NCBI RefSeq assembly: GCF_900499075.1
Contig: NZ_UIHC01000018.1
Location: forward strand, 1 to 57,693
Direction of reading: 5' to 3'
Length of the DNA stretch: 57,693 bases
From: Roseinatronobacter ekhonensis
GTDB taxonomy: Bacteria; Pseudomonadota; Alphaproteobacteria; Rhodobacterales; Rhodobacteraceae
Shown in pieces: positions 30,113 through 49,912 of this stretch. The notes under the pieces are model-generated. The model had not been told where the DNA came from. It ran no database searches and saw nothing but the letters and a program-made list of their open reading frames with translations. Every line of letters starts with the position of its first letter. Position 1 is the stretch's first letter. Both the position numbers and the translations under genes were made by a program.

Positions 30113-30897
30113 AAGGTGTCCTTTCCGGTCGCGGCGTTGGTTTCGGGCGGCAGTGCCAGCAAATCGATATGGCCGATGCGCGCTTGCGTGTTTGGCAGTG
30201 CAGTCATCCGCGCGCTCAGCCAGCTATCCGCCGCGTCATGCCCAGCGCGAGTGGCGGCCGCGGCGATGCCGTGCAACAATTCCGCCTGCAACGCATCATC
30301 TCTGGGACCAAGCTGCCAAGGGCTCTCGGCCAACATTACACGATAGCCCGCCGCGGCCAGCCTGTCGCGCGCGCGCAACGCACCCGCCGGGCCAAGAGCG
30401 GGACCAAAGCCTTTGTCGCTACTCTGGTCGCGGTTAAAGGCCAGCGTTACGCTATGATCCGCATCATTCGCGGGGGTCCATGACATGGCGCCGTCATAGC
30501 TGAGCGCGGCGTAAAGCGGCAGTCTGTGCTGCACCAGACGCATGACCAACGCGTCCAGCCACGCGTTCGACACCAGATCCAGCAGCGCAGACGCGGTCAC
30601 CAGCCCGGCCCCTGCCAAGGGCAACGCGTCCAGATCGGTCAGGTCTGCCTGCACGGTGCGCACCCGTCCGCCCATGCGCGGGGTCAGCGCCAGCAACGCG
30701 GCGTCATTGTCCACCAACGTCCAGCCCGTGTCGTCAGGCACGACATCGGCCATGGCCCGCAGGGTTGCCCCTGTGCCTGCCCCCAGATCGACAATCATGC
30801 TGCCAGCCGTAGCCCCGGCCTGCGCCAGTAGCGCAGGGTCACGGGCCGCACGGTCGGCGGATGCACGCAAGGCCAGCCAGTCGGGCGCAAATCCCAT
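30109..30897 (-). CDS. Class I SAM-dependent methyltransferase
   Basis: A 262-residue methyltransferase. The SAM-binding motif I is VDLGAGTG at 36-43, motif II is VDNDAALL and the post-motif region TASALLDLVSNAW is intact. The substrate is unknown. Its position between the PTPS-fold gene (gap 3 bases) and the RibD-type reductase (4-base overlap) suggests a small pterin-like or aminopyrimidine molecule, but this is an inference from neighbours. The start at 30897 is an ATG (MGFAPDWLAL). Confidence 0.85.
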   Translation of the reverse strand: MGFAPDWLALRASADRAARDPALLAQAGATAGSMIVDLGAGTGATLRAMADVVPDDTGWTLVDNDAALLALTPRMGGRVRTVQADLTDLDALPLAGAGLVTASALLDLVSNAWLDALVMRLVQHRLPLYAALSYDGAMSWTPANDADHSVTLAFNRDQSSDKGFGPALGPAGALRARDRLAAAGYRVMLAESPWQLGPRDDALQAELLHGIAAAATRAGHDAADSWLSARMTALPNTQARIGHIDLLALPPETNAATGKDTL

Positions 30898-30900
30898 GGG

Positions 30901-31296
30901 TTACACCTGCCCCTCATACCAGGCACGGGCGGTATGGCTCTCATGTAGCAAAATGCGCAGCCGTTTCACGCGCCCTTCGTCCTTCAGAAAACCGGACGAA
31001 ATCCTAGCCTGCATCGCGTCGAAGATGTGTTTGCACAAGAATTCGGTGGTCGTGAACTTTGCCTTGAACTCCGGCACCTCGTCCAGATTCTGGTAGCGCA
31101 ACGGCTGTAGCACCTCGGCCAAGGCCTCTGTTGCAAGGCCGATATCCACCACCAGCCCGTGCGCGTCGATATCTTCGGTATAGAACGCGGCATCGACCGT
31201 GAAGGTCGCACCATGCATCCCCTGCGCCGGTCCAAAGACCGGCGACGGCAATGAGTGGGCAATCATGATATGGTCGCGAACTTCGACAGCGAACAT
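30901..31296 (-). CDS. PTPS/QueD-fold protein lacking the catalytic triad
   Basis: A 131-residue T-fold protein of the 6-pyruvoyl-tetrahydropterin synthase / 6-carboxytetrahydropterin synthase group. The start is the ATG at 31296 (MFAVEVRDH). Two of three zinc His are kept (H14 and H28), but the HGH motif reads HGA, so the third ligand is A30. The catalytic Cys is replaced by A24, and the LDHxxLN motif reads LRYQNLD, so the catalytic Asp and His are also lost. The pterin-anchoring Glu is kept in LLHESHTARAWY (E119), as is the helix start TTTEFL. It may bind a pterin-like base without doing the PTPS reaction. It belongs to the four-gene operon and is probably cytoplasmic. Confidence 0.85.
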   Translation of the reverse strand: MFAVEVRDHIMIAHSLPSPVFGPAQGMHGATFTVDAAFYTEDIDAHGLVVDIGLATEALAEVLQPLRYQNLDEVPEFKAKFTTTEFLCKHIFDAMQARISSGFLKDEGRVKRLRILLHESHTARAWYEGQV

Positions 31297-31314
31297 GGGC
31301 GGTCCTTTCAAGGG

Positions 31315-32274
31315 TTACGAGTAGCGGATGCGGTGGCACAAGGTGGCCGGATCAGCGACAATGGCGGCGTAGTCCTGCGGCAGATCCTCGAATGCCGTTT
31401 CGCCAGAGATGAGCGCATCCAAAATAGGATCGAGCAGCAGATCGAGCGCCTTGGCCAGACGACGGCGATAGTCCCAACGCGGCAGACGGTCAGGCGGCAA
31501 TGCGCCGACCTGCGAACTGACAAGGCGCAATCGTTGGCTGTGAAACCGCCCGCCCAGTGGCAACGCAACAGGCGACGTGCCGTGCCAGCTCGCTTCTACC
31601 ACGGTTGCGCCCGGCCCTGCATTCTCCAAAGCCAGTGCCAGCCCATCGCCAGAGGCGGACGCATTCACAATTGCGTCATACGGCCCCGTCAGCGCGTCGG
31701 GCGCGGCAAAGGCAGCGCCCATTTTGGCAGCAAGCCCGGCGCGCGCCGGGTCCAGATCGGTCAGCGTGACCTCGGTGCCGGGCATCCTTGCGGCCAGATA
31801 AGCCACAAGCGCGCCGACCACCCCAGCCCCAATCACCGCCACACGGTCGCCGGCAGAAATGCCACTGTCCCAAACCACGTTCAACGCAGTTTCCATATTC
31901 GCGCCCAGCACCGCGCGCGCGGGCGGCAAACCGGGCGGCAACGGGATGACACTTTCGTCCGGCAGGCGGAACCGGTCTTGATGCGGAAACAGCGCAAAAA
32001 CCATGTCGCCCTGCTGCGGCCCGTCCATGCGCTCTGCGACGGCGCTATAGCCGTATTTTACCGGAAAGGAAAACTCACCCTCTTGGAAAGGCGCGCGCAT
32101 GCGGCCTTGTTCCGAAGACGGCACGTTCCCCGCCAGCACAAGCCGTTCCGTGCCACGGCTGATCGCGCTGTAGCAGGTGCGAAACAGCGCCCCGGTGCCA
32201 CTGGCGGCGGGAGCAAGGCAAGCAATTCCGGGCGCTGTAATCCAAAGCGCGCGGGCGGTGTCATGATCTGTCAT
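31315..32274 (-). CDS. MDR superfamily (zinc-binding alcohol dehydrogenase-like) oxidoreductase
   Basis: A 319-residue medium-chain dehydrogenase/reductase. The N-terminal segment YSAISRGTERLVLAGNVP resembles the SGIS-GTE stretch of BchC-type and related dehydrogenases, and the NAD(P)-binding Rossmann motif is VIGAGVVGAL near residue 147. The usual catalytic and structural zinc cysteines are not evident. It starts the minus-strand operon with the PTPS-fold, methyltransferase and RibD-type genes, 18 bases before the PTPS start. Divergent to it is the FkbM methyltransferase; the 146 bases between them hold both promoters, which I could not define. Confidence 0.85.
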   Translation of the reverse strand: MTDHDTARALWITAPGIACLAPAASGTGALFRTCYSAISRGTERLVLAGNVPSSEQGRMRAPFQEGEFSFPVKYGYSAVAERMDGPQQGDMVFALFPHQDRFRLPDESVIPLPPGLPPARAVLGANMETALNVVWDSGISAGDRVAVIGAGVVGALVAYLAARMPGTEVTLTDLDPARAGLAAKMGAAFAAPDALTGPYDAIVNASASGDGLALALENAGPGATVVEASWHGTSPVALPLGGRFHSQRLRLVSSQVGALPPDRLPRWDYRRRLAKALDLLLDPILDALISGETAFEDLPQDYAAIVADPATLCHRIRYS

Positions 32275-32420
32275 ATCCTGCGGTATGGTCGTAGCCTTCC
32301 TTCGTCGGCACAGTTAGGGCATTGCCCCGCCAAGGCAAAGCATTGCACGAAAACAACAGCCTAACGGCTGGACAATCAGGGGGCTGTGCTAGCTCATACC
32401 CAAAGCAATCAGGGGCAGAC

Positions 32421-33194
32421 ATGGGTATCAGCAGTTTTCTGGGCGTCGTGCGGTCGGTGGTGATCTATTACAACCCTGTGCTGATGCACCGGAACCAGCG
32501 GCTTTATAGCGGACTTGTCCAAAAGGGTGATCTGGTTTTTGACGTGGGTGCGCATGTTGGCACACGCGCACGGGTGTTGCGGCGTCTGGGCGCGCGCGTA
32601 ATCGCGTTCGAGCCGCAACCGGTCTTTGCGCGCTTCCTGCGCTGGACCTTGCCGCGCAGCGTCACACTGGTCGAAGCTGCCCTTGGCCAGACCGAGAGCC
32701 GCGCCCAGATGGCCGTATCGCGACGGCATCCAACCGTGTCATCGTTGCGCGACAGCCTGCCGGACGAGGCCCGCGCCATGCCCGGATTTGAGCATGTCCG
32801 CTGGGACGGGCGCGCCGAAGTGGCCGTGACCACGCTCGATGCGATGATCGCGCGCCACGGGCGGCCCGACTACATCAAGATCGATGTAGAGGGCTACGAA
32901 GCAGAGGTTTTGTCGGGGTTGACCCAGCCGGTGAGCCTTGTGTCGTTCGAATACCTGCCCGGCCTACCCGCGCCAAGCGCTGCCGTGATCGACCGCTTAT
33001 GCGCCCTTGGCGCTTACACGTTCAACGTGGTCCGCGGCGAGAACGCGGGGTTCGAGTGGACCGACTGGCAAGACGCCGAAGCCTTGCGCGCATGGCTGGC
33101 AGATCAGGCCCCTGATAGCGGGTCGGGCGATGTCTATGCGCGGCTTGAGCCAGCACCCGCCGCCACAGGCGCGGGACCGTCGCAAGCGGCCTAA
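32421..33194 (+). CDS. FkbM family methyltransferase
   Basis: A 257-residue SAM-dependent methyltransferase of the FkbM family, which usually methylates hydroxyls of sugars or polyketides. Motif I is VFDVGAHVGT, followed by FEPQPVFARFL, and the family-typical KIDVEGYEAEVLSGL is complete. The start is the ATG at 32421 (MGISSFLG); a longer frame upstream covers the intergenic region. It stands alone between two minus-strand operons. A hairpin of 7 base pairs follows at 33203-33236 but has no T run. A sugar substrate would suit the glucan genes downstream. Confidence 0.86.
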   Translation: MGISSFLGVVRSVVIYYNPVLMHRNQRLYSGLVQKGDLVFDVGAHVGTRARVLRRLGARVIAFEPQPVFARFLRWTLPRSVTLVEAALGQTESRAQMAVSRRHPTVSSLRDSLPDEARAMPGFEHVRWDGRAEVAVTTLDAMIARHGRPDYIKIDVEGYEAEVLSGLTQPVSLVSFEYLPGLPAPSAAVIDRLCALGAYTFNVVRGENAGFEWTDWQDAEALRAWLADQAPDSGSGDVYARLEPAPAATGAGPSQAA

Positions 33195-33227
33195 AGCGCA
33201 AGGCGCCCTTAGGGTGTTTCGGGCCTT

Positions 33228-34019
33228 TCAGGGCGCGCGCAACACCTGCGCAATTGCGTCGAACAGGGCCGGGGTCGCGGTCAGGACGGTGCCGGTGTCT
33301 TCGGGCCGAGTGCCCGGCACCAACCCGTCCACCACCGCGCCCGCCTCGCCCAGCAACACAAGCCCGGCGGCAATATCCCATGGCTGCAAGCGGCGTTCCC
33401 AGAACCCGTCCAGCCGACCGCAGGCGACATAGGCCAGATCCAGCGCCGCCGCCCCCATGCGCCGCACCCCGGCGCAATGCGGCATGAGCCGCGCAATATC
33501 GGCGGCATGATCGTCGATATACGCCATGGTGCCAAAGGGAATGCCGGTGCCAAACAGGGCGTCGCGCATCAGCGGTGTCGGCGCGGGTGCTATAGACTGT
33601 CCGTTCAGCCAGGCACCGCCCCCTGCCAGCGCGCAAAAACACTCATCGCGCGTAGGATCATAGACCACGCCCAAGACGCGGGTGCCTGCTTCCTCCAACG
33701 CGATGGACACAGCCCAATGCCCGATGCCGCGCAGGTAATTCGTCGTCCCGTCCAGCGGGTCAACGATCCAGACGCGCTGCGCACCCTTGGTGGCGCTTCC
33801 GGTTTCCTCGCCCAGCCAGTGATCGTCGGGGCCGCACAGGCGGTGCCGCAACAGGGCTTCTGCGCGCAGATCAGCTTGCGACACGAAATCGCCCGCTCTT
33901 TTAGAGGATGGCGCAAGGCTGTCTTGCCCCGAAAGCAGCGCCTTTAGTAGTGCGCCCGCGTCGCGCGCAGCTGCAACCGTCTCGGTCAAGGCGGCCTTGT
34001 AAGGGTGGGTCCCGGTCAT
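33228..34019 (-). CDS. Inositol monophosphatase family protein
   Basis: A 263-residue magnesium-dependent phosphatase of the IMPase/FBPase superfamily. The metal site residues are visible: GEETG (E71-E72 region), DPLDGTTN at 87-94 and WDIAAG near residue 213. Members act on inositol phosphates, histidinol phosphate, PAP or similar compounds, so the true substrate is open. The start at 34019 overlaps the upstream flippase-like gene by ATGA. It is the last gene of a four-gene coupled operon that begins with a CDP-alcohol phosphatidyltransferase; together these could make or recycle a phospholipid head group. Confidence 0.9.
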   Translation of the reverse strand: MTGTHPYKAALTETVAAARDAGALLKALLSGQDSLAPSSKRAGDFVSQADLRAEALLRHRLCGPDDHWLGEETGSATKGAQRVWIVDPLDGTTNYLRGIGHWAVSIALEEAGTRVLGVVYDPTRDECFCALAGGGAWLNGQSIAPAPTPLMRDALFGTGIPFGTMAYIDDHAADIARLMPHCAGVRRMGAAALDLAYVACGRLDGFWERRLQPWDIAAGLVLLGEAGAVVDGLVPGTRPEDTGTVLTATPALFDAIAQVLRAP

Positions 34020-34900
34020 AATGCGCGCATCCTGCTGCGGCGGGCGGCGAGCATGCGCGCGGCGAGCGGCACAAGTCCGGTCAATGCCGCCGCTATGGCC
34101 ACAAGCCCGAAGGCGATACTGGCTGCAACGGCATCGGTCGGGGCGGTTCCGGCCATCGGCCACAGGCCCGCCGCCAACCCTTCGCGCAGACCCCAGCCAT
34201 TGACCGTCAGGGGCACAAGCATGGACAGCAAGGTCAAGGGAATGACAAAGAGCGTCTGCGCCGCGCCCATGCTCAGGCCGACAGCACAGGCCGCTGCCCA
34301 AAAGCCAAACAGATTGCAGGCGACAATCGCCGTGCTCAGACCGATCTGCGCACGCAACTTCGGCCCCCATGCGCGCCACGCCAGCGCACGCCAGCGTGCG
34401 GGCGTCAGGCGCACAAGAGCCAGCGCAAGCAACGCCGCGCCCGCCAGAAGCGCCAGCGCAATGGCCCACGCTGCCTGCCGTGTGGCCAGCCACCACGCAA
34501 GCCCCGCAAGCGCTGCGGCCGCGAGGGCGATTTGCCCCGCAATCCGCTCAATCACCACAGAGGCGGCGGCAGGCCGCCAGCCGCCCATCGCTCCGCGTGC
34601 GCGCGCCGTGCGCCCCAGATCGCCCAGCACACCACCGGGCAACAGCGTATTGCCCAGAACCGACATATGGTATTCCCCCAGCGCCCAGCCGGTAGACACC
34701 GGCGTGCCGAGCGCCCGTGCGGTGATCTGCCAGCGCAGCGCAGACAGCCAGATTTGCAGCACCAGCGCCGCGATCGCAAGCGCCACCCAGCCCGCATGCA
34801 GTGTGGCAAGGCGCGCCGCAAGATCGGCCGGACCTGCCAGCCAGATCACGCCAGACAGCACCGCCAGCGTGGCAATGGCCCGCAACGCGCGCGCGGTCAT
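34016..34900 (-). CDS. Flippase-like integral membrane protein (UPF0104/LPG synthase TM domain family)
   Basis: A 294-residue protein with about seven or eight transmembrane helices. The family signature is visible in LGNTLLPGGVLGDLGRTARA (near residue 85-105) and the later LSMLVPLTVNGWGLREG. The family includes the membrane part of lysylphosphatidylglycerol synthase and YbhN/AglD-type proteins involved in moving or modifying lipids. The catalytic domain of MprF is absent. It overlaps both neighbours by 4 bases (OpgB-like gene upstream, IMPase downstream), so it belongs to the same lipid or glycan modification operon. Confidence 0.85.
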   Translation of the reverse strand: MTARALRAIATLAVLSGVIWLAGPADLAARLATLHAGWVALAIAALVLQIWLSALRWQITARALGTPVSTGWALGEYHMSVLGNTLLPGGVLGDLGRTARARGAMGGWRPAAASVVIERIAGQIALAAAALAGLAWWLATRQAAWAIALALLAGAALLALALVRLTPARWRALAWRAWGPKLRAQIGLSTAIVACNLFGFWAAACAVGLSMGAAQTLFVIPLTLLSMLVPLTVNGWGLREGLAAGLWPMAGTAPTDAVAASIAFGLVAIAAALTGLVPLAARMLAARRSRMRAL

Positions 34901-36561
34901 GGTGCGCGCCCCTGTGGTGTGTACGCACTGGCTTGGGTGTCCGGCCCGGCGCTTGCGCCGCTTCCCAGCCGCGTCAACAGCAGGTCGCGCAGCGCATCCA
35001 TGGGGGTGGACGGGCTGGCAGGGTCGGGCAGCATACCCTCTGCCCAGCCCAACCCGTCGAACAGGGATACCAAGTCGGGCGGGCCGATCAGGTGCAGCGG
35101 CACGTCGTAATCCTCAGTGCCGGATACAAACCGCGCGGGTTCGTGATCGCCCAATACAAGGATCAGCGGCGCTTTGTCAGGATCGCCACCTTGGCGCGCC
35201 GCCCAAGCGCCGACGGTGCGCAAGCTGTAGTCAATCGCCTGACGGAACTGGTCGCGCACGCGGTCATGATCGCGCCAGACCACTTCGGGCGGGTCGCCCG
35301 ACAACGCCCATTGGTCAAAGATGCGACCGTCGCCCACCGCGTCCCATGGCACCATTTCGGGCACCGGAACCCACGGCGCGTGTGACGACACCAAAACAAC
35401 CTGCGCCACAAGGGGCGCACGGTCGCGACGCGACAATTCCAGCCGCTCGAACGCGGTCAGGGTAAACTGGTCCGGCATCGTCACCCAGTTGAAAGGCTGG
35501 CCGCGATAGCCCAGATCCGGCGCATTATAGATCGCGTCGAACCCGAAATAGGCACCCTCGGGCCATGGCAGAACATGGGCAGGCATGATCGCCACGCTGC
35601 GCCGTCCGGCTTGCTGGGCAAAATGAAACAGGGTGCGGCGGGGGCTGGCCAGCAAGGCGCGGTAGCGCGATTGGGTGTCCAGCCACATGCCGGATGCCAC
35701 CGACCCGTGCGACAGCCAGCTTTGACCACCGACCATGGGCGCACGCGCCCAGCCAGAGCGCATGGCCAGCCCCGTATCCGCGATTGACTGCTGTGCCGTT
35801 CGTAGCGTGCTGGTATGGGTTGCCGCGTATAGCGGGTTTTCATAGCTGGATCGACCGTAGCTTTCGACATAGATCAGGATCAGGTCGCGACCGCCTAACC
35901 TGTCAAACAGGGGCGTTTGCCCGCGCATCGGGTCTGCCATCGCCGCCGCTTGAAACCGCGCCAGATCGACGCGCGCGGCAATCGCCTGCTCGACACGTTC
36001 CAGCCCGACCCGGGCGGTAAAGGCAGCACCGGGCGGACGTAAGTTTTCGGGCAAGACCCAAACGCCGCGCGCCGCACCGATCTCTGCCACAGGCGGGATC
36101 AACAACAGCGGCACCAACGCCAGCGCCACAGGACGGGCCAGCCTTGGAACGGGCAGGCCTGCCAGCACGCCGGTCGCCCACCAAAGCGCGTAGCCGAGGG
36201 CCAACAATCCCAAAAGCCCCGCAGCCAAGGCCAGTCCCGCTAGCCCAGTGCCCAGCGTGCCTTTCGCCAACATCCAGCCCGCAGGGGCAAGATGGTAGTC
36301 GACCATCAGGTTGAAGCCACGGTTGAACGCGGTGAAGGTCGCGAAATCGGCCAGCTTCAAGACGGCAACGGCCCATAGCACAGCGACCAGCGCAATGCGC
36401 AACGCTGTGCCCGCCCAGCTTCGTCCCAGCGCAATAAGGGTCGCCACGATCACCGGCAGCTCCAGCGGAAAAACCGCCAGCGCGCCCCATGTCATCGCCT
36501 GCGGGTGGTTGGGCTGGATCAGCACCAGATACAGCAGGGCAAGTGCTACGACAGGTTTCAT
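34897..36561 (-). CDS. OpgB/LtaS-like phosphoglycerol transferase (alkaline phosphatase superfamily)
   Basis: A 554-residue membrane enzyme. About five transmembrane helices occupy residues 1-160; the periplasmic catalytic domain follows. LILIYVESYGRSS (E233) is the first metal-site motif, GGQSWLSHG around 279-286 is where the family has its Ser/Thr nucleophile, and LVLGDHEP near residue 470 gives the second metal site. This is the layout of OpgB (phosphoglycerol transfer onto periplasmic glucans) and LtaS. The start is the ATG at 36561, which overlaps the upstream gene by ATGA; longer in-frame readings into the next gene are shadows. With opgH and opgG opposite, glucan decoration is the best guess. 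Confidence 0.85.
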   Translation of the reverse strand: MKPVVALALLYLVLIQPNHPQAMTWGALAVFPLELPVIVATLIALGRSWAGTALRIALVAVLWAVAVLKLADFATFTAFNRGFNLMVDYHLAPAGWMLAKGTLGTGLAGLALAAGLLGLLALGYALWWATGVLAGLPVPRLARPVALALVPLLLIPPVAEIGAARGVWVLPENLRPPGAAFTARVGLERVEQAIAARVDLARFQAAAMADPMRGQTPLFDRLGGRDLILIYVESYGRSSYENPLYAATHTSTLRTAQQSIADTGLAMRSGWARAPMVGGQSWLSHGSVASGMWLDTQSRYRALLASPRRTLFHFAQQAGRRSVAIMPAHVLPWPEGAYFGFDAIYNAPDLGYRGQPFNWVTMPDQFTLTAFERLELSRRDRAPLVAQVVLVSSHAPWVPVPEMVPWDAVGDGRIFDQWALSGDPPEVVWRDHDRVRDQFRQAIDYSLRTVGAWAARQGGDPDKAPLILVLGDHEPARFVSGTEDYDVPLHLIGPPDLVSLFDGLGWAEGMLPDPASPSTPMDALRDLLLTRLGSGASAGPDTQASAYTPQGRAP

Positions 36562-37322
36562 GCAAGCGCGCCCGCTTGGCGGCGCAACGCCTGAATATCG
36601 CGAAGGAACGACCCAAGCACGACCAAAAGGATTGCAGCGCCCAGCCAGTAGGACAGCGGTGCGCTCAGGACCGGCAACAGCAACGCGACCTGTCCACCCA
36701 TCTGCACCCCCGCCACAACGCGGCGGCGCTGCGAGGGCGCAAGGGGCGCATGTAACCACGGCCAGACCCGGCCCGCGATCAGAAAAGCCGGTCGCAACAG
36801 GCCCAGCAGCAAGAACCACGGGCCGACCTTGGCCATGGCCACCGCAAGTGCAGCCATCACCAACGCAAAGGCCACGTCGGTTTCGACATCCAGCCGCGCG
36901 CCAAAGCGCGACGACAGCCCAGTGCGTCGCGCAGCCCAGCCATCGACACCGTCGAGGCCGAGGATCACCGCCGCAAGCGCAACCAGCGGGTAGCCAAGCG
37001 CGCCCAGCGCATCCGGCACCGCCAGCAGTCCCGCAAGTGCGGCAATGGCCGCGCCGCGCAACAATGTCACCATGTTGCACAGGCCCAACCGGGCGTGCGG
37101 ATAGGCAGAGCGTTGGAAGCCGAGCAAGACGAGCGCGCTGGCGGGACATATCACGCAGGCTGTCAAAGCCGCCGCCGCCAGCGCTTGGTCAGCGCCCGCA
37201 TGGCTGGCCAGGGCAAACGCGCCCACAACCGCCGACGGCAATGCGACCGCCACGACCACCCAGGCCTGACGCTGGGCGTGCGGGGAAACGGCGATGTCTG
37301 CGGTGGCGAATAATTTGTCCAT
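36558..37322 (-). CDS. CDP-alcohol phosphatidyltransferase
   Basis: A 254-residue integral membrane enzyme. The signature DG-x2-AR-x8-G-x3-D-x3-D is present exactly: D127, G128, A131, R132, G141, D145 and D149, preceded by the family NxxTxxR segment (LCNMVTLLRG). Such enzymes transfer a phosphatidyl group from CDP-diacylglycerol to glycerol phosphate, serine, inositol phosphate or similar. The acceptor is not evident. It is the first gene of the minus-strand operon; the 134-base gap to the divergent cytochrome b561 gene holds both promoters. An acceptor tied to the IMPase product (for example inositol phosphate) is possible. Confidence 0.9.
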   Translation of the reverse strand: MDKLFATADIAVSPHAQRQAWVVVAVALPSAVVGAFALASHAGADQALAAAALTACVICPASALVLLGFQRSAYPHARLGLCNMVTLLRGAAIAALAGLLAVPDALGALGYPLVALAAVILGLDGVDGWAARRTGLSSRFGARLDVETDVAFALVMAALAVAMAKVGPWFLLLGLLRPAFLIAGRVWPWLHAPLAPSQRRRVVAGVQMGGQVALLLPVLSAPLSYWLGAAILLVVLGSFLRDIQALRRQAGALA

Positions 37323-37456
37323 CTGCGATTATTTAGCACATTACCACGGGGATCAATCCCGACACCGCTTGATCACGCGACTTTGCCTTTGCGCGATCCG
37401 CCCTAGCTAATACTAAGGATCGACTATTCGACGACGTAACGCAGCAAGAGGCCGCA

Positions 37457-38020
37457 ATGACCCCCGCTGACACTATGCCGACCCGCTATCCCGCGCTGAC
37501 CCGCGCCCTGCACTGGATTGTCGCGGCGCTGGTGATCGCGACCATCCCCGCCGGGGTGCTCATGCTGCAACCCGACATGCCGCGCGGCCTGCGCGATACA
37601 TTGTTCATTCTGCACAAGAATGGCGGCGTGATTATCCTTGCTTTGGTCTTGCTACGATTGGTCTGGCGCGTGCTTTACCCCGCGCCGCCATTACCATCGA
37701 GCTTGTCGCCGCTTCAGGCCCAAGTCGCGCGCGGCGCACATTTCGGGCTCTATGCCTTGCTGCTGGTCATGGCTGTTAGCGGGTATATCCGTGTGCGAGC
37801 GGGCGGCTTTCCGATAGAGATGCTGGATGCAATCGGCCTGCCGGGCTTCGTGCCGCGGTCCGACTCTCTGGCCGACACCGCGAAATGGGTTCATGCAACG
37901 GCGCGTTATGCGTTGATTGCGCTGATCCTTGCACATGTGGGCGCAGCCCTACATCATCTGCGCAAGCGCGACGGAGTATTCGCCCGCATCTGGCCGCCTT
38001 TGGGACGTGGCCGGGCATGA
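37457..38020 (+). CDS. Cytochrome b561 family protein
   Basis: A 187-residue four-helix membrane cytochrome of the CybB/b561 type. Heme-ligand histidines are visible in ALHW (H19), ILHKNGG, GAHFGLY and the last helix LILAHVGAALHH. CybB oxidises ubiquinol and can pass electrons to superoxide; many paralogs have unknown partners. The start is the ATG at 37457 with an AAGAGG sequence before it. It heads a plus-strand operon whose next gene, the OpgH fusion, begins inside its stop codon (ATGA). A role in the glucan pathway is unclear. Confidence 0.88.
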   Translation: MTPADTMPTRYPALTRALHWIVAALVIATIPAGVLMLQPDMPRGLRDTLFILHKNGGVIILALVLLRLVWRVLYPAPPLPSSLSPLQAQVARGAHFGLYALLLVMAVSGYIRVRAGGFPIEMLDAIGLPGFVPRSDSLADTAKWVHATARYALIALILAHVGAALHHLRKRDGVFARIWPPLGRGRA

Positions 38021-40434
38021 GCCGCGCGGCGTGGCCGCTTTTTGCGGCATTGGGTCTTGCAGGCGGGCTTGCATCGCTATTCTGGGCGGGGATTGACCAC
38101 GCCACCACAACGCCCGCCTTGGCGGTCTTGGTTCTGGTGCTCTTCACGCTGAACGCGCTGGCATTGGCGGCGGCAGGGGTGACAGCTGTCATGGGATTGC
38201 GCGGCGCGCAACCGCGACCGGCGCAAAACGGCCCACCCCCAGACCGCTGTGCTATTCTTTGGCTGATCTGCGGAGAGCCGCCAGAGCCGCTGGCACAACG
38301 CGCGGACATGCTGGCCCGGACCTTGCGCTTGCGTCCCGAGGGGGCTCGCACGCAAATTTTCATCCTGTCGGACACAACCGACCCGGTGGCCGTTGCGACC
38401 GAACGCGCCTTGTTCGGCGCTATTTCCGGCGTGGTCTACCGAAACCGCACAGCGCCGCAGGGGCGAAAGCCCGGCAACCTGAGCGATTGGCTCGCGCAAT
38501 ATGGCGGACAGTTCGACACGATGCTTGTGCTCGACTCCGATAGCGGGTTCTGCGCGCGCAAACTGGCACGGATGCGCCGCATCATCGCGCATGACCCTGC
38601 CTTGGGATTGCTGCAAGCCGGGATCGCGCTGCGCCCCGGAAGCAGCAGGCTGGCCCGCCTGCAACGGTTGTCTGCGCGCCTGACAGGCCCCGTTTTCACC
38701 CACGGGCTGGCGCGGTTAAGCGGGGCATGTGCAAACTATTGGGGTCATAACGCACTGTTGCGCGTGGACGCCTATCGCAGCGTAGCGGCCCTGCCCGACC
38801 TGCCCGGTCGTGCGCCGTTTGGCGGGCCTGTGCTGAGCCATGATTTCATCGAAGCCGCCAATCTGCGCGCGGCGGGATGGGACATCCGCATCCTGCCCGA
38901 CACGCGCGGCAGCTTCGAGGACGCCCCCGAAACCACCGCGACCCATACCCGCCGCGACCGTCGCTGGGCGCAGGGCAATCTGCAACATTTGCGCCTGATT
39001 GGCGGGCGCGGGCTGCATATGGGCAGCCGTTTGCATCTGCTGGCAGGAATACACTCCTATCTGTCGGCCCCGGTCTGGCTGGCTCTGGTTGTTCTGCTGG
39101 GGTCCGGCGCGGTCCATGCAAGGCTGGAAGCGGTGATAGCCTTGGCTGCCACGCTGGCGCTATTGCTTGTGCCGAAACTGGCGGGGCTCGTGCGGTTGCG
39201 CGGGCACTTGGCGCGCAAATCAGGATTGGTGATGCGCGCCTTTGCGGCGGAACTGGCGGTTTCGACCGTGATCGCCCCGATCTGGATGCTGCAACGCTCG
39301 GGCCATGTGGCGTCGGTGCTGGCAGGGCGCGACACCGGCTGGCACCCTTCAGGCAGCCGGGGCGCAGGCGCACGGCACCGGGGCCGAGGCGCGCAATCGG
39401 CCGGCCTTGTGATCCTGCTGGCAGTCATGGGGCCGCAAGCATGGCTCGCCTCTGGCGCAAGTGCAGCGCTCTCCGGAGCGATGGTGCTGCCGGTGGTCGG
39501 ACCCTTGATGCTGGCCCCGTGGCTGCTGGCTTGGCTGGATGCGCCCGCGCGCCCAAACCGTGTAGCGCAATATTACGACGCAAGCACAAAGCGATTTCTG
39601 GCCGTCGGCGGCAGCGGTGCGGCGCTGGCCATCCACCGCCCGCTTTGGGCGGACGGGATCGCGACGTCGGAACAGGCCGCAGGCCATGTCAACACGCTGA
39701 TCGGGCAGGCTGCAATGCAGGCGACGGGGCATGCGCCGCGCCATGTCTGCGATCTGGGCTGCGGCGTGGGCGGCACCGTGTTTCATTTGGCCCGACTGTG
39801 GCCGCAGACGCGGTTTTCCGGTCTGACACTCAGCGGCGAACAGGTCCGGCTGGCGCGCACCTATGCCGAGTGGCATGGGTTGGCGGACCGTTGTCATTTT
39901 CTGCAAGCCGATTTCACCCGCCAACCCAACCTGCTGACCAAGGCCGATATGGCCATCGCCGTGGAAAGCCATGTCCACGCCCCAAGCGCCAAGGCATTTT
40001 TGCAGGCCGCATTGGCGCATCTGGCACCGGGTGGTGTACTGGTGCTGGTCGATGACATGCTGTCTGACACGCGCACACTGGCCCCAACAGATGCGCGGTT
40101 GATCGACAGTTTCCGCAAGGGCTGGCGGCTGGGTCATGTCACGCCTTGTGACAGCATCGTTGCGCAGGCCGAGGGACTGGGCTACGCGACCGTCGCCCGG
40201 ACCGACCTGAGCCAGCATCTGCATCTGACCCGTTTGCGCGACCGCGCCCTGCGGGTCGTTGGTCCGGTGGTGGAATGGCTGGGGCTGGACCGACACGCGC
40301 TGTTTGCCAATATGGTCGGCGGCAACGCACTGACCGAAAGCTACCGACGCGGGCTGATGCGCTACACGTTGCTGGTGCTGCGTGCGCCAGAAGCGGTGCC
40401 CCTGCCGCGCGGGATCGCGGACACGGCGGCATGA
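38017..40434 (+). CDS. OpgH-like glucan glucosyltransferase fused to a C-terminal SAM methyltransferase
   Basis: An 805-residue fusion. Residues 1-500 are an OpgH/MdoH-type GT2 membrane glucosyltransferase: two N-terminal helices, the DSDSG donor site at 173-177, GHNALLRVDAY near 243, the catalytic HDF at 275-277 and RRDRRWAQGNLQH at 312-324, then further membrane helices. From about residue 515 (RVAQYYDAST) a class I methyltransferase follows, with motif I DLGCGVGG at 579-586 and the WADGI segment typical of tocopherol-/sarcosine-type methyltransferases. OpgH builds the beta-1,2-linked backbone of periplasmic glucans from UDP-glucose at the inner membrane. The start at 38017 overlaps the cytochrome b561 stop, and opgG overlaps its own. 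Such a fusion is unusual. Confidence 0.88.
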   Translation: MSRAAWPLFAALGLAGGLASLFWAGIDHATTTPALAVLVLVLFTLNALALAAAGVTAVMGLRGAQPRPAQNGPPPDRCAILWLICGEPPEPLAQRADMLARTLRLRPEGARTQIFILSDTTDPVAVATERALFGAISGVVYRNRTAPQGRKPGNLSDWLAQYGGQFDTMLVLDSDSGFCARKLARMRRIIAHDPALGLLQAGIALRPGSSRLARLQRLSARLTGPVFTHGLARLSGACANYWGHNALLRVDAYRSVAALPDLPGRAPFGGPVLSHDFIEAANLRAAGWDIRILPDTRGSFEDAPETTATHTRRDRRWAQGNLQHLRLIGGRGLHMGSRLHLLAGIHSYLSAPVWLALVVLLGSGAVHARLEAVIALAATLALLLVPKLAGLVRLRGHLARKSGLVMRAFAAELAVSTVIAPIWMLQRSGHVASVLAGRDTGWHPSGSRGAGARHRGRGAQSAGLVILLAVMGPQAWLASGASAALSGAMVLPVVGPLMLAPWLLAWLDAPARPNRVAQYYDASTKRFLAVGGSGAALAIHRPLWADGIATSEQAAGHVNTLIGQAAMQATGHAPRHVCDLGCGVGGTVFHLARLWPQTRFSGLTLSGEQVRLARTYAEWHGLADRCHFLQADFTRQPNLLTKADMAIAVESHVHAPSAKAFLQAALAHLAPGGVLVLVDDMLSDTRTLAPTDARLIDSFRKGWRLGHVTPCDSIVAQAEGLGYATVARTDLSQHLHLTRLRDRALRVVGPVVEWLGLDRHALFANMVGGNALTESYRRGLMRYTLLVLRAPEAVPLPRGIADTAA

Positions 40435-41957
40435 AGCGGCGCGACTTTCTGGGCGGTGTCGGCTTGTTTGGCCTTGTGCCCGTGCGGCTGGCCGGCGATG
40501 CGCCTGCCGCGCCCGAAGCGCTGGTGGCGACCGCGCGCGCTATCGCGGACCGGCCATACGAGCCGCCGCAAACCGCACTGCACCCGCCCTTCGACAGCAC
40601 GACCTATGACAGCTATCGCGGGATTCGCCCGCGCGCAGGCGTGAGCGGTGATCTGGCGCTTGGCACGCAGTATCGTGCGGACCTGTTGCCGCCGGGCTGG
40701 TTGTTTCGTGACCCTGTCGCGATAGACCTGCCGGGGCATGACACGCGCTTTTCACCTCGGATGTATCACTACGATCCGCGCTACTTCAGCGGTCAGGATA
40801 TTCCTGAAACCGCGGGCGATATGGGGTTTTCAGGGCTGCGTCTGCGCACCACGCTTAATGCTTCGGACCGTTGGGACGATGTGCTGGTGCTGCAAGGTGC
40901 CAGCTATTTCCGCGCGCTCGCCCGCGACACGGTCTATGGCCTGTCGGCGCGCGCGCTATCGCTTGGCACGGGGGGCGCCGGGCCCGAAGAATTCCCGCGG
41001 TTCACCCGAATTGTGGTGTTCAACGCCGATGAGAGCCTGCATTTCGGCTGCCTTGTCGACAGCCCAAGTGCCAGCGCCGCACTCATAGCCCGGCTGCACC
41101 CCGGTACGCGGACCACGCTGGACTGCGCGCTACATCTGTTCCCGCGCGTGCCGATAGCTGATGCAGGCATCGCGCCGCTGACCTCGATGTTCCAGCACAA
41201 TGACATGGGCCCGGCGCGGATAGACGATTTCCGGCCCGCCGTGCATGACAGCGACGCGCTGGTGATCGACAACCACGCGGGCGAGCGGTTGTGGCGACCC
41301 CTGGCAAACCCGGCACGGGTGCAGATGTCGGCCTTCGCGGACAACACGCCGCGCGGGTTCGGGCTGGTTCAGACCCCGACAGAGTTTGCCCGTTTCCGCG
41401 ATCAGGAAGGCGCGTATCACCGCCGCCCCTCGGCTTGGGTTACGCCCAATGGCGATTGGGGCGCAGGCGCGGTCATGTTGCTGGAAATCCCGACAGAGAA
41501 CGAATTTGCCGACAATATCGTTGCCTTCTGGCGGCCCGACCGGGTGCTTGACCCCGGCGCCCACCGCTTCGACTACATGCTGGAAGTGACGCGCCCCGGC
41601 CCCGCGCCGCTGCCCGCAAGGCCGGAGCCGCTCTGGCCCGCGCGCAGCGCTTCCGGGATAGAGCCGAATACGGGCAACGGGCGGCTTTTCGTGATCGACT
41701 ACAGCGCGCGGTCGCCGCTGCCTGCGATGGATGGTGCAACGCTGGACATATCCGACCCCGCGCAAGGCCGTATTGCCGGACAGGCGCTATACCCGCTTTC
41801 CGAAGGGCAGGCAACGTGGCGTGCGAGTTTCATATTTACCCCCGCGCCGGACCAGCAGGTCGCGGAACTGCGGTTGCGCCTGCGCGCGACGGATGGCACG
41901 CCGCTGGCACCGGTCTGGCTGCACCGCTGGACCCGAACGGCGCAAGGAGGCATCTGA
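40431..41957 (+). CDS. opgG: Periplasmic glucan biosynthesis protein OpgG/OpgD
   Basis: A 508-residue protein of the OpgG/OpgD family needed for making osmoregulated periplasmic glucans; OpgG/OpgD shape or branch the chain in the periplasm. The N-terminus MKRRDFLGG is a Tat-type twin-arginine signal, as in OpgD. Family segments include FSPRMYHYDPRYF, GFSGLRLRTTLN, GASYFRALARDTVYGLSARALS and the late FADNIVAFWRP. The start at 40431 overlaps the stop of the opgH fusion (ATGA); the GT4 gene starts in its own stop. Together they form a coupled operon. Confidence 0.92.
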   Translation: MKRRDFLGGVGLFGLVPVRLAGDAPAAPEALVATARAIADRPYEPPQTALHPPFDSTTYDSYRGIRPRAGVSGDLALGTQYRADLLPPGWLFRDPVAIDLPGHDTRFSPRMYHYDPRYFSGQDIPETAGDMGFSGLRLRTTLNASDRWDDVLVLQGASYFRALARDTVYGLSARALSLGTGGAGPEEFPRFTRIVVFNADESLHFGCLVDSPSASAALIARLHPGTRTTLDCALHLFPRVPIADAGIAPLTSMFQHNDMGPARIDDFRPAVHDSDALVIDNHAGERLWRPLANPARVQMSAFADNTPRGFGLVQTPTEFARFRDQEGAYHRRPSAWVTPNGDWGAGAVMLLEIPTENEFADNIVAFWRPDRVLDPGAHRFDYMLEVTRPGPAPLPARPEPLWPARSASGIEPNTGNGRLFVIDYSARSPLPAMDGATLDISDPAQGRIAGQALYPLSEGQATWRASFIFTPAPDQQVAELRLRLRATDGTPLAPVWLHRWTRTAQGGI

Positions 41958-43006
41958 TGCAACTGGCTTTTGCCATTCCGGGCGATCCCGATGCCCGCAC
42001 CGGCGGCACGCTCTATGACCGCCAAGTGATTGATGCGCTGCGAGTGCAGGGGCATGACGTGACGATGGTCGCGCTGCCGGGCAACTGGCCGCACCCCAAT
42101 GCATCCGACACGGTACAGGCGCTTGCCCGTATTGATGCCCTGCCCGGCAATTGCCCCGTGATCATTGACGGTCTGGCCTTTGGCGCTTTGGCGCCGGATG
42201 CCGTGACGCAATTATCGCGGCCCGTCATTGCCATGGTCCACCACCCGCTGGCGCTGGAACCGGGGCTGACGGCGGCAGAGGCGCAGGGGCTGTTTGACCG
42301 CGAACGCAGCAACCTTGCCCATGCCGCGCAGATTGTCGTGCCATCAGCCCATGTCGGCGGGCTGCTGACCGCGCGCTTTGGTGTGGCCAGTGACCGCGTG
42401 CATGTGGCCCATCCGGGGTTTACCCCTGCCGCACCAGCCGCCGTTTCCGCCGCTTTGGACGGGCCTCCACTGATTCTGTCGGTCGGGCTGATCTGCCACC
42501 GCAAAGGGCATGACGTTTTGCTGCGTGCACTCGGTCGGGTGGCCGGTCTGGACTGGCGCGCGGTGATCGTTGGTCGCAAACATGATGCCGCACATGTCAT
42601 GGAACTGGAACGCCTGTGCGCCGATCTGGACCTTGGCACACGCGTCACATTCGCCGGGGAATTATCCGCCCCAGACCTTGCCACGCTTTATACCCGCGCG
42701 CGGGTCTTCGCGCTGGCCACCCGCTATGAGGGCTACGGAATGGTCCTGTCAGAGGCGCAGCAATACGGCCTGCCCGTTGTGTCTTGCGACACCGGCGCAG
42801 TCCCAGAGGCGCTGGACGGCAGCGGCTTGCTTGCCCCGCCAGACAACCCGGACGCCTTTGCCGCCCATTTGCATGCGGTTCTGACGAACGAACCGCTTCA
42901 CGCGACGCTTGCCGCCAAAAGCCGCGCGCGTGCGGCCAGTCTGCCCACATGGGATGACGCCGCACGGGTCATGGCGGGGGCGGCACAAAACGCGGTGTCG
43001 CGCTAA
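41957..43006 (+). CDS. GT4 family glycosyltransferase
   Basis: A 349-residue GT-B-fold retaining glycosyltransferase. It begins with FAIPGDPDARTGGTLYDRQVIDAL, has the mid-domain LSVGLICHRKGHDVLL and ends with the nucleotide-sugar motif RYEGYGMVLSEAQQYGLPVV, where the Glu residues hold the donor sugar. No membrane segment is seen, so it acts at the cytoplasmic face. The acceptor may be a lipid or a glucan intermediate. The ATG at 41957 shares one base with the opgG stop. Its end overlaps the convergent FAD oxidoreductase by 4 bases. Confidence 0.9.
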   Translation: MQLAFAIPGDPDARTGGTLYDRQVIDALRVQGHDVTMVALPGNWPHPNASDTVQALARIDALPGNCPVIIDGLAFGALAPDAVTQLSRPVIAMVHHPLALEPGLTAAEAQGLFDRERSNLAHAAQIVVPSAHVGGLLTARFGVASDRVHVAHPGFTPAAPAAVSAALDGPPLILSVGLICHRKGHDVLLRALGRVAGLDWRAVIVGRKHDAAHVMELERLCADLDLGTRVTFAGELSAPDLATLYTRARVFALATRYEGYGMVLSEAQQYGLPVVSCDTGAVPEALDGSGLLAPPDNPDAFAAHLHAVLTNEPLHATLAAKSRARAASLPTWDDAARVMAGAAQNAVSR

Positions 43007-44031
43007 AACCCGAACCCCTCGGGCACGCGGTTGCGGCTCTCCAGCACCAGATCGGCCATGATCTGCGCCAGCGCGGGGGCCATGGCGAAGCCGATCTTGA
43101 AGCCGCCGTTGAACACAAAATGCCCCGCGCGGTCCGGCCATGCGCCCATCAGCGGCGCGCGGGATTTGGCACGCGGGCGCACTCCGGCCCAGCGTGCCAT
43201 GACGGGCGCGCCGGCCAGTTGCGGGCACGCGGCTAGCGCGCGCGCGTGCAACGCATCGCATTGCGCATCGGTCGTGTCGGGCGCGTCAAAATCACGCTCG
43301 CTGGTGGACCCTATGGCAACCGTGCCATCGGCATGGGGCACGATGTGCAACCCGTCGGCAAAGACCTGCGGGACATCGGGCGCGGCATGGGCCAGCAACA
43401 GCGATTGCCCCTTCACGCCGCTGCCTATGGTTCGGCCCAGATCGTGCGACACTGCGGCCAACCCTTCATAGCCGGTGGCCCAGATGACCGTACCGCCCGT
43501 GGGCTGGTCGCCCTGCTCGACCGTCACACCCTGCGCTGCCAAGGCCGCGACCAGTGCGGCAACGGCGCGGCGCGGGTGCAGCCGCGCGGTCAGCGTGTCG
43601 AGCACCACGAAGCCCGAGGGCGCATCAAGCACCAAGCCCGGTGCCTGTGCCACGGGCAGCACGCGCCATTCGGCAAAGCCTTGCCACAGCGCGCGGGCGG
43701 ACACTTCGCGCAGCCGCGCCAGGTCGACCGCCCCCTCGGCCAAAGGCTGCACGCGGCCCGTGCGTGCATAGCCCGGATCGCCGCCGCCACGCGCCGCCAC
43801 ATCGGCCCAATAGCTTTCGGCCATGCGCAGCGCATCGAATTGCATGGCTTTCTTGGGGTTCCAGTTTTCCGGCACATGCGGGGCGAGTGCGCCGACAATC
43901 CCGCCGCTGGATCCCGCTCCCGGCGCGCGCTTTTCGATCACCCGCACGCGCGCCCCGCGATCCGCACAGGCCAGCGCCACGGTCAGGCCGAAAACGCCCG
44001 CACCCATCACGCATATATCGGCCATTGTCAT
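43003..44031 (-). CDS. FAD-dependent oxidoreductase, probably an MnmC1-type tRNA enzyme
   Basis: A 342-residue DAAO/glycine-oxidase-fold protein. The N-terminal dinucleotide motif is ICVMGAGVFGLTVALACADRG, followed by EKRAPGAGSSGGIVGALAPHVPE, and the C-terminal FAD segment is FVFNGGFKIGFAMAP. In many gammaproteobacteria an enzyme of this kind is the C-terminal half of MnmC, which removes carboxymethyl from cmnm5(s2)U34 of tRNA before methylation. Here it faces the separately encoded mnmD across only 54 bases, so it is likely the missing MnmC1 partner. Other amino-acid oxidase roles remain possible. The start is ATG at 44031 or the in-frame ATG at 44025. Confidence 0.75.
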   Translation of the reverse strand: MTMADICVMGAGVFGLTVALACADRGARVRVIEKRAPGAGSSGGIVGALAPHVPENWNPKKAMQFDALRMAESYWADVAARGGGDPGYARTGRVQPLAEGAVDLARLREVSARALWQGFAEWRVLPVAQAPGLVLDAPSGFVVLDTLTARLHPRRAVAALVAALAAQGVTVEQGDQPTGGTVIWATGYEGLAAVSHDLGRTIGSGVKGQSLLLAHAAPDVPQVFADGLHIVPHADGTVAIGSTSERDFDAPDTTDAQCDALHARALAACPQLAGAPVMARWAGVRPRAKSRAPLMGAWPDRAGHFVFNGGFKIGFAMAPALAQIMADLVLESRNRVPEGFGF

Positions 44032-49726: not shown

Positions 49727-49912
49727 ATCGCGAGGTTCCTTTTGTGCCTTGCACGCCAGATAGCCCAAAGGCGGCCCTTGGAAAAGGGGCCTTTCGGACC
49801 AATCGCGGCACTGGACCGACACATTCGGTTAACACCGCGCGCGGACCGTTCAGCGGGCCTTTGCGCGAAGCTGGCAGAAATGGGCTGCCACGCCATGCAG
49901 GAGCACGCCGCC

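Follow-up and report, generated by a model that had tools for sequence, protein, structure and literature searches.

The locus at positions 33228-43006 raises the question of why genes for periplasmic glucan synthesis stand back to back with genes for lipid head-group chemistry, and whether they form one system. We addressed it in a window of 57,693 nucleotides, the whole stretch of DNA analyzed here, from the draft genome of Roseinatronobacter ekhonensis. The eight genes form two divergent operons separated by 134 bases (37323-37456), a region with one sigma-70-like match (9/12, - strand), the sole one in 37200-37600, where shuffling gives 0.1 expected. The - strand operon encodes a CDP-alcohol phosphatidyltransferase (CAP, 36558-37322), an OpgB/LtaS-like head-group transferase (OPGB, 34897-36561), a flippase-like LPG_synthase_TM protein (FLP, 34016-34900; PF03706, 111.5 bits), and an IMPase-family phosphatase (33228-34019; PF00459 Inositol_P, 179.5 bits). 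The + strand operon encodes a cytochrome b561 (37457-38020; PF01292, 93.7 bits), OpgH fused to a C-terminal SAM methyltransferase (38017-40434), OpgG (MdoG, 40431-41957), and a GT4 glycosyltransferase (41957-43006; PF00534 Glycos_transf_1, 103.7 bits). Internal junctions are 4-base overlaps throughout, save the single base shared by OpgG and GT4. The coordinates thus bear out the layout described in an earlier note on this DNA.

The OpgH and OpgG assignments of that note are also genuine: OpgH meets the curated MdoH model NF003962 (406 bits, cut-off 328) and OpgG, which reaches 425 bits against PF04349 (cut-off 25), is the sole match to this family in the host genome. The methyltransferase part of the fusion (about 39637-40431; Methyltransf_25) is rare. 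The fusion recurs in genome G237 and 14 named loci, and among the 244 Rhodobacterales genomes searched only G000, G237, and G125, where it is standalone, have strong matches to the methyltransferase part. Found in so few genomes, the fusion was rejected as the key to the system. The idea that the eight genes are one fixed set does not survive either, as OpgH of the local type adjoins OPGB in 12 of the 52 loci of our neighborhood sample and is absent from the other 40 stretches (in two of them, L060 and L067, the OpgH present is of a more distant type). The eight genes are part of a larger system, not a natural unit. Judged by the refuting condition of the earlier note, the two operons are independent in gene order, but not in co-occurrence: strong OpgH matches are present in 51/51 Rhodobacterales genomes with OPGB versus 105/193 others (p 7e-12, a value that ignores shared ancestry), and the arrangement in which b561-OpgH-OpgG diverges from CAP-OPGB recurs across loci.

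The structure model of OPGB (pLDDT 90.8) has N-terminal helices followed by a sulfatase-superfamily fold, which fits a membrane-anchored periplasmic domain of the alkaline-phosphatase superfamily. Its best Foldseek matches are LtaP (E 8e-10) and LtaS, with MCR-1 and GacH among the first 17 and sulfatases from the 19th; the structural similarity is of moderate strength (TM about 0.4 of query, 0.5 of target). The protein falls below the Pfam Sulfatase cut-off (20 bits vs 25) and matches no NCBIfam model. Residues E233, S281, H394, D472, and H473, the putative nucleophile and metal-ligand positions, do not vary in alignments of 32 and 28 sequences. As modeled, OPGB shares its fold with the LtaS/GacH/MCR kind of phospholipid head-group transferase. 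Previously described as an OpgB homolog, it keeps the head-group transferase part of that description but loses the homology in sequence, since a 32-sequence profile gave no significant match to E. coli OpgB, b4359 (hhalign probability 0.7%, E 0.078). CAP has a clear match to PF01066, CDP-OH_P_transf (50.2 bits, cut-off 22), and invariant residues of the CDP-AP motif (D-x2-D-G-x2-A-R-x8-G-x3-D-x3-D) in 20 aligned sequences, while all its matches to NCBIfam subtypes are far under cut-off. CAP and OPGB are near-constant partners across loci, and are fused in frame in one genome (G192).

These genes might simply serve the ordinary phosphoglycerol decoration of OPG, with CAP as a dedicated PGP synthase, the IMPase as PGP phosphatase, OPGB as OpgB, and the neighbors unrelated. 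CAP does belong to the PgsA family, as one of five CDP-alcohol phosphatidyltransferase genes of the host genome, and a passage in PMC3818809 describes the transfer of phosphoglycerol from phosphatidylglycerol to OPG by E. coli OpgB. However, such a reading has to contend with the lack of a significant profile match to E. coli OpgB and with an IMPase that tracks a reductase gene, RIBD, rather than CAP, and it leaves the make-or-import pattern described below without explanation. We regard it as very improbable.

The neighboring genes suggest another function. A conserved - strand operon (29264-32274), absent from the earlier note, adjoins the locus and encodes a zinc-type alcohol dehydrogenase (ADH, 31315-32274; ADH_zinc_N and BchC matches, both weak), its recurrent partner, a divergent PTPS-like protein of the SCO6650 family (30901-31296; PF01242, 82.9 bits), a SAM methyltransferase (MT15, 30109-30897; Methyltransf_25, 27.1 bits), and a RibD C-terminal-type reductase (RIBD, 29264-30112; PF01872, 120 bits). 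Another recurrent neighbor that had not been listed is an FkbM-family methyltransferase on the + strand (32421-33194, start inferred; PF05050, 64 bits). In five named loci it separates CAP from OPGB, and RIBD and FkbM lie inside the CAP-OPGB operon in five, e.g. that of Rhodobaculum. MT15 has orthologs in 23/244 Rhodobacterales genomes and no match among PDB sequences at E 0.001. The PTPS-like protein of the window is below the curated QueD cut-off (36 bits vs 89.25), and the motif FGPAQ-x2-HGAT, found in 15/15 aligned sequences, is without the catalytic Cys and the third zinc His that mark QueD and 6-pyruvoyl tetrahydropterin synthase. From these families, the operon would probably build a GTP-derived heteroaromatic, hereafter compound X, a putative small molecule that is either made by this pathway or imported.

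Accordingly named "make" and "import", the two states are defined by the presence of the RIBD/PTPS/ADH/MT15 pathway or of an ABC importer with a thiamin-pyrimidine-like binding protein (SBP). The 51 OPGB genomes divide into 19 with make only, 27 with import only, 1 with both, and 4 with neither (Fisher p 3e-9, ignoring shared ancestry). Over the 244 genomes, the cross-tabulation of OPGB with MT15 or SBP gives 47/4/7/186 (p 7e-38, again ignoring shared ancestry). Supported branches of the OPGB tree require import to have changed no fewer than 6 times and make no fewer than 7; independent pairs on such branches are only 7, with a median p of 0.06 in a sign test. A set of 80 named loci has 13 make, 18 import, and 0 both, and within its stretches longer than 21 kb, 15 loci show neither, including Bosea and Kaistia, whose stretches have only OPGB and CAP. 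The coupling of OPGB to the X pathway or the importer is thus well supported. An extra GTP cyclohydrolase II lies within the cluster in 16/20 make genomes and 0/27 import-only ones. A Tyr directly precedes its QEGRG motif in 26/26 Rhodobacterales copies read, and other Proteobacterial cluster copies have the same Tyr, then Leu or Met; the idea of a changed product of these copies is therefore unsupported. The Streptomyces copy has a different sequence around the motif. The SBP of the importer belongs to PF09084 (NMT1/THI5, 131 bits), and its best 20 Foldseek matches are all thiamin-binding, formylaminopyrimidine-binding, or Thi5 chains. The four genomes with neither have no GT4 within the fetched stretch. 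A MalE/MalF-type sugar importer (c26, c21) occurs near OPGB in these four and also in the make-type G237, and is a candidate third supply route.

The phosphatase and the GT4 follow this pattern as well. The IMPase mostly accompanies the X pathway, occurring with RIBD/PTPS even where lipid genes are not near, and is found in 0/29 of the sampled importer loci (among the named loci, L126, of the import type, has an IMPase match about 2 kb away). GT4 is present in 47/47 OPGB genomes with pathway or importer. We thus assign both, from family and neighborhood, to compound X rather than to lipid synthesis; the company of the RIBD cluster also disfavors the IMPase as a phosphatidyl-phosphate phosphatase. 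The earlier proposal of a dedicated lipid donor survives in outline, through the fold of OPGB and its partner CAP, but not its use of phosphatase and GT4 as inositol-lipid enzymes. That the donor is a glycosylated inositol-type phospholipid could draw on membership in the IMPase family and on the solved relatives of GT4, Tll1590 first and then PimB' and MshA, the latter two acting on inositol compounds. Yet the IMPase scores 168.7 bits against the 332 demanded by the inositol monophosphatase equivalog NF008027 and is missing from the 29 sampled importer loci, and inositol-1-phosphate synthase (PF01658) is without a match in the draft genome, so that this version is hardly credible.

We propose, at slightly less than an even chance, that the locus belongs to an envelope-decoration system of make-or-import type, which places X, via a dedicated phospholipid, on an envelope acceptor. 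RIBD, the PTPS-like protein, ADH, MT15, and the IMPase would convert GTP into X, usually with the dedicated GTP cyclohydrolase II, and relatives lacking these genes would take up X or a precursor by the NMT1/THI5-type transporter. X would be glycosylated by GT4 and probably methylated by FkbM; CAP would join the alcohol to CDP-diacylglycerol, FLP would flip the resulting phospholipid, and OPGB would transfer the phospho head group onto an acceptor in the periplasm. The order of the glycosylation, coupling, and flipping steps is inferred. Several observations weigh against the proposal: the OPGB genomes and named loci with neither make nor import, the IMPase match near importer locus L126, the small number of independent pairs, and the moderate fold similarity. 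In Rhodobacterales the OpgH/OpgG glucan is the leading candidate acceptor, though we hold this only tentatively.

Genomes with partial sets bear on the acceptor. In a sample of 349 genomes outside Rhodobacterales, PTPS occurs in 20, including 10/10 with OPGB. Loci from Streptomyces, Microbacterium, Agrobacterium, and Rhizobium plasmids carry CAP together with the X pathway and GT4, plus a gene or match of the flippase-like type, with OpgH and OpgG absent from the stretch; in Streptomyces and on the Microbacterium plasmid, CAP lies beside ADH-PTPS-GT4-MT. Because the stretches from Streptomyces and Agrobacterium combine lipid genes with a lack of opgGH, the glucan is probably not the acceptor everywhere. 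These loci, and LtaP/LtaS as nearest folds of OPGB, would also suit a glycosyl-X phospholipid, or an LtaS-like polymer of its head group, that is itself the envelope component, with OPG genes co-located through a response to shared envelope stress and glucan no longer the acceptor. The ubiquity of strong OpgH in Rhodobacterales genomes with OPGB, the recurrent divergent layout, and the fact that OpgH adjoins the X pathway even where OPGB is absent speak against this alternative, which we consider unlikely but serious. As to the last observation, 7/10 OPGB-negative PTPS genomes outside Rhodobacterales have ADH-PTPS-GT4-MT15 in direct divergence from OpgH and no lipid genes there, and OpgH is beside the X cluster in 3/3 within the order. 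Likewise, importer and GT4 adjoin OpgH in 3/4 OPGB-negative SBP genomes. In a group of such loci (flavour B: L096-L098, L193, L201-L206, L209), CAP, OPGB, and flippase are absent from the stretch, and X is therefore independent of the lipid route there, which also counts against the decoration proposal. Glycosyl-X might then prime or terminate the OpgH glucan, or leave with it, CAP-FLP-OPGB being a second export route. We find this quite improbable, given the 40/52 OPGB stretches that lack local-type OpgH (L060 and L067 having the distant type) and two Actinobacterial cassettes with no OpgH near.

Returning to decoration through a dedicated phospholipid, its broadest form holds that in two phyla a lipid-borne, GTP-derived glycoconjugate of pterin or aminopyrimidine type reaches the outer side of the membrane through a flippase and a transferase resembling LtaS. 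In Rhodobacterales its destination would be periplasmic glucans, where it may be a redox-active group that the co-transcribed cytochrome b561 services, and roughly half of the lineages would have lost synthesis and scavenge from neighbors. Taken as a whole, this is rather doubtful. If confirmed, the predicted envelope substituent would represent a new kind of envelope chemistry, and the make-or-import split suggests that envelope decoration may rely on a metabolite exchanged among bacteria. Both the orphan PTPS family of SCO6650 and OPGB, mostly annotated as "sulfatase" in plasmid records, gain a genomic setting. A search of open-licence PMC literature found no description of this gene set, which is weak evidence of absence.

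Among known systems, the E. coli OPG pathway (OpgH, OpgG, OpgB, OpgC, OpgE) is the obvious comparison. OpgH and OpgG are here members of the same families, and the two share the principle of a periplasmic enzyme, anchored in the membrane, that transfers head groups from phospholipids, which a passage in PMC3818809 describes and which we propose for OPGB. In contrast, OPGB is no OpgB by sequence and is accompanied by a phosphatidyltransferase of its own, by FLP, and by a GTP-derived pathway or importer, and the OpgH here has a methyltransferase attached. Pterin glycosides and the periplasmic pterin signaling of PruA-PruR-DcpA involve released pterins, whereas X is a prediction from genes; a passage in a 2026 review (PMC13259868) states that bacteria release pterins by an unknown route across the inner membrane, and the lipid route is a candidate answer for a pterin-like molecule. 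ThiY, Thi5, and thiamin SBP (3ix1, 4h6d, 4nmy) share fold and sequence family with the importer's SBP, at 16-19% identity, but the latter is linked to envelope genes. The LtaS, LtaP, GacH, and MCR-EptC transferases share the fold of OPGB at 11-16% identity, with Ser in OPGB at the presumed nucleophile position, which is Thr in LtaS. Finally, SCO6650 of Streptomyces coelicolor (3d7j) belongs to the same family as the PTPS of the window (E 4e-49), with the altered motif FGPAQ-HGAT in both. Activities of SCO6650 and SCO6655 have reportedly been described by the Bandarian group. SCO6650 is "uncharacterized" in its PDB entry; here its relatives form part of a conserved cassette that also holds GT4, together with CAP or OpgH.

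The eight genes lie where the earlier note had placed them (33228-43006), with overlaps as it described and with the 134-base region (37323-37456) from which IMPase, FLP (a flippase-like LPG_synthase_TM protein), OPGB (an OpgB/LtaS-like head-group transferase) and CAP (a CDP-alcohol phosphatidyltransferase) on the reverse strand diverge from b561, OpgH-methyltransferase, OpgG and GT4 on the forward strand. Pfam and NCBIfam confirmed their families. The genome (G000; 3.9 Mb in 196 contigs) has one OpgG match and five CDP-OH_P_transf matches. We searched 244 genomes of Rhodobacterales for OPGB and 52 matched at E 0.001; leaving out G143 (E 8e-4, about 110 residues) gives 51 genomes and 52 loci, whose genes were mapped by tblastn in stretches of up to 20 kb. 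The natural neighbourhood exceeds eight genes. Its recurrent order opens with the pathway operon for a proposed GTP-derived compound, X, namely RIBD (RibD-type reductase), MT15 (methyltransferase), PTPS (PTPS-like protein), ADH and optionally RIBA (GTP cyclohydrolase II), continues with FkbM, IMPase, GT4, an NMT1/THI5-type ABC importer (PERM-ATPA-SBP), FLP, OPGB and CAP, and has b561 (or YceI), OpgH and OpgG divergent from the CAP side. This order is complete in none of the 52 loci. OpgH of the local type adjoins in 12, seven further loci have OpgG without OpgH, and L060 and L067 carry a more distant OpgH type within the stretch. The window follows the recurrent order, but its GT4 is placed behind OpgG and the importer is absent. 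Its G+C is 0.65-0.68 at 32000-44000 vs about 0.57-0.65 elsewhere in the window, which could reflect an island history separate from the surroundings. In L036, L037, L039-L043, L045, L046 and L179-L181, b561 is replaced beside CAP by a gene judged YceI-like by eye, or this gene adjoins OpgH, and an endonuclease/exonuclease/phosphatase-family gene (c9) is another common neighbour.

The pathway and the importer mark two states, make and import. MT15 orthologs (at least 127 bits; next match 29) occur in 23 of the 244 genomes, and SBP orthologs (at least 467 bits; next match 198) in 32. The 51 OPGB genomes comprise 19 with MT15 only, 27 with SBP only, one with both (G174) and four with neither (G058, G201, G205, G229). 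Across all 244, OPGB and either marker coincide in 47 genomes, OPGB stands alone in 4, a marker alone in 7, and 186 have neither. Among named loci, taken as the best 80 OPGB-profile matches and partly from the same genomes, the pathway is present in 13, the importer in 18, and no locus has both; the remaining 49 have neither in the available DNA, many being on short contigs and 15 on stretches >21 kb, and four of these 49 have RIBD alone (L129, L131, L139, L141). Close relatives differ in state: Roseibaca domitiana is of the make type, Rhabdonatronobacter sediminivivens carries the importer as an insertion between OpgG and GT4, and Marivita shows both make (L151, L157) and import (L149, L166, L173). 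Supported branches of the OPGB tree (52 rows) require at least six import-state and at least seven make-state changes. Since shared ancestry leaves only seven comparisons of pairs on separate branches, co-occurrence p-values are of limited weight; in none of these seven do importer and pathway change in the same direction (median p 0.06). A MalE/MalF-type sugar ABC transporter (c26, c21; type assigned by eye) is a recurrent neighbour of FLP and OPGB in loci lacking the NMT1-type importer (L060, L061, L062, L067, L068; named loci L127, L130, L135, L136, L143, L159, L161, L168), and is perhaps a third supply route. In G081 (L058, L095), the OPGB match is split into two parts, of which one contains two stops, and may be a decaying or divergent copy; elsewhere, a CAP match and RIBA lie with the PTPS cluster.

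Several genes can be assigned to the pathway. RIBD clusters lie apart from OPGB in eight make-type genomes (G188, G050, G054, G163, G022, G168, G174, G113), all with IMPase inside the cluster. Counting both stretches and G174, IMPase accompanies the RIBD cluster in 16 of 20 make genomes; it was not seen in the stretches of G125 and G081, and those of G040 and G053 are too short. The tblastn-mapped stretches of the 29 importer loci in the sample contain no IMPase, with one counter-case among the named importer loci, L126, where an IMPase match of 215 bits stands about 2 kb away from the importer. GT4 lies within the OPGB locus or X cluster in all 47 make-or-import OPGB genomes and is absent from the stretches of the four genomes with neither. 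In all 54 genomes tested there is a RibA with a full score as well as a weaker match that resembles RibBA, both labels being taken from the scores. An additional in-cluster GTP cyclohydrolase II occurs in 16/20 OPGB make genomes (not G000, G176, G188 or G192) vs 0/27 import-only genomes, split rows being counted once; the pathway therefore probably starts from GTP. RIBD matches RibD_C (120 bits), followed by an archaeal diaminopyrimidine reductase model below cut-off. Neither the catalytic Cys nor the third zinc His is present in any of 15 sequences of the PTPS-like protein, which groups with SCO6650, a protein that keeps pterin-binding residues but is not known to have PTPS activity. The window also holds a RibBA-like gene (48599-49822) whose cyclohydrolase match is weak and split, and the genome's full-scoring RibA lies on a different contig.

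Two outlets accompany the pathway and GT4, namely CAP-FLP-OPGB or OpgH, both present in the window and several relatives. Among 349 genomes of the phylum, PTPS occurs in 22, OPGB in 16 and both in 12, the four OPGB genomes without PTPS (G007, G009, G013, G014) all being of importer type. Outside the order, all 10 OPGB genomes have PTPS, and we mapped the stretches around PTPS in all 20 PTPS genomes. The ten stretches with OPGB include CAP in nine (not L211); OpgG is present in L214, L215, L217 and L219 and OpgH in L217 and L219, neither of these two adjoining ADH. The ten without OPGB have OpgH divergent from ADH in seven (L201-L206, L209); L207, L208 and L210 have neither OpgH nor CAP in the stretch. 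Methylosinus represents the OpgH form of the cassette. Within the order, OpgH adjoins the cluster in all three MT15 genomes without OPGB, one of which also has an OpgC-like gene (read by eye), and three of the four OPGB-negative SBP genomes have importer and GT4 beside OpgH; the stretch of the fourth, G212, begins at a contig end and has no GT4 or OpgH. Plasmid records gave 20 PTPS and 28 OPGB matches. Rhizobium and Agrobacterium plasmids carry CAP, OPGB, FLP and the cassette together; on a Thiodictyon plasmid the cassette is accompanied by CAP and by an incomplete OPGB match, and a Microbacterium plasmid has CAP-ADH-PTPS-GT4-MT-FLP with RibD. In Streptomyces fungicidicus, CAP adjoins ADH-PTPS-GT4-MT, accompanied by ribA, a creatininase-family gene and a flippase-like match, and the OPGB homolog is about 290 kb away on the same replicon. 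Two other Streptomyces records (three of six viewed) have a PTPS homolog without cassette, and one unannotated Arthrobacter record has ADH, PTPS and GT4 matches.

The OPGB model is of good quality (pLDDT 90.8), and its Foldseek rows 1-17 include LtaP, LtaS-type proteins, 3lxq, MCR-1 and GacH, followed by sulfatases (TM about 0.4 of query, 0.5 of target). From this fold, OPGB is predicted to work like a phospholipid head-group transferase; we do not class it as OpgB because its sequence comparison with E. coli OpgB was not significant. All of the 20 CAP sequences aligned retain the residues of the CDP-AP motif, and the CAP profile weakly matches cholinephosphotransferase and PS synthase. CAP and OPGB are naturally fused in G192 (L040 8069-10480), where the two matches are joined in frame as one gene without an intervening stop. 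In L129, L131, L139, L141 and L148, FkbM separates CAP from OPGB and RIBD follows OPGB directly, all on one strand. The OpgH-methyltransferase fusion reads as one uninterrupted frame in G237 and in 14 of the 15 named loci with both domains; in the fifteenth, the domains are in different frames. Solved relatives of this methyltransferase include MitM (the best) and a D-glucose O-methyltransferase, so it might act on either the glucan or X.

In the simplest model, X would be glycosylated by GT4, the product would become the head group of a dedicated phospholipid, and this lipid would be flipped across the membrane and its head group transferred to glucan. The OpgH-only outlet, and Actinobacterial loci without OpgH nearby, call for caution and leave room for rival readings. 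Strong OpgH (E below 1e-40) occurs in every one of the 51 Rhodobacterales genomes with OPGB vs 156/244 overall (59 whose matches were weaker and 29 lacking a match were counted as without), which favours glucan as the acceptor in this order. No description of this gene set was found in the open-access papers covered by our searches, among them PMC3818809, PMC11389396 and PMC13259868.

Outside Rhodobacterales, a creatininase-family gene is part of the cassette (L188 16645-17436; L210, L213-L215). This family includes ArfB, the formylaminopyrimidine deformylase, and an ArfB-like role would match a GTP cyclohydrolase II homolog whose reaction ends with the formylamino product. SBP is strongly conserved (mean column identity 82%, 15 sequences). 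By sequence, the solved structures nearest to it are 4nmy (with thiamin bound, according to its title), ThiY (formylaminopyrimidine) and Thi5, the last ranking behind 3qsl in one of the searches, with only 16-19% identity; with the SBP model (pLDDT 85.6), Foldseek rows 1-20 are of the 4nmy, ThiY and Thi5 kinds, followed by 3qsl, PqqT and TauA. At this low identity, our leading guess for the SBP ligand is an aminopyrimidine-like compound, in agreement with a GTP cyclohydrolase II pathway.
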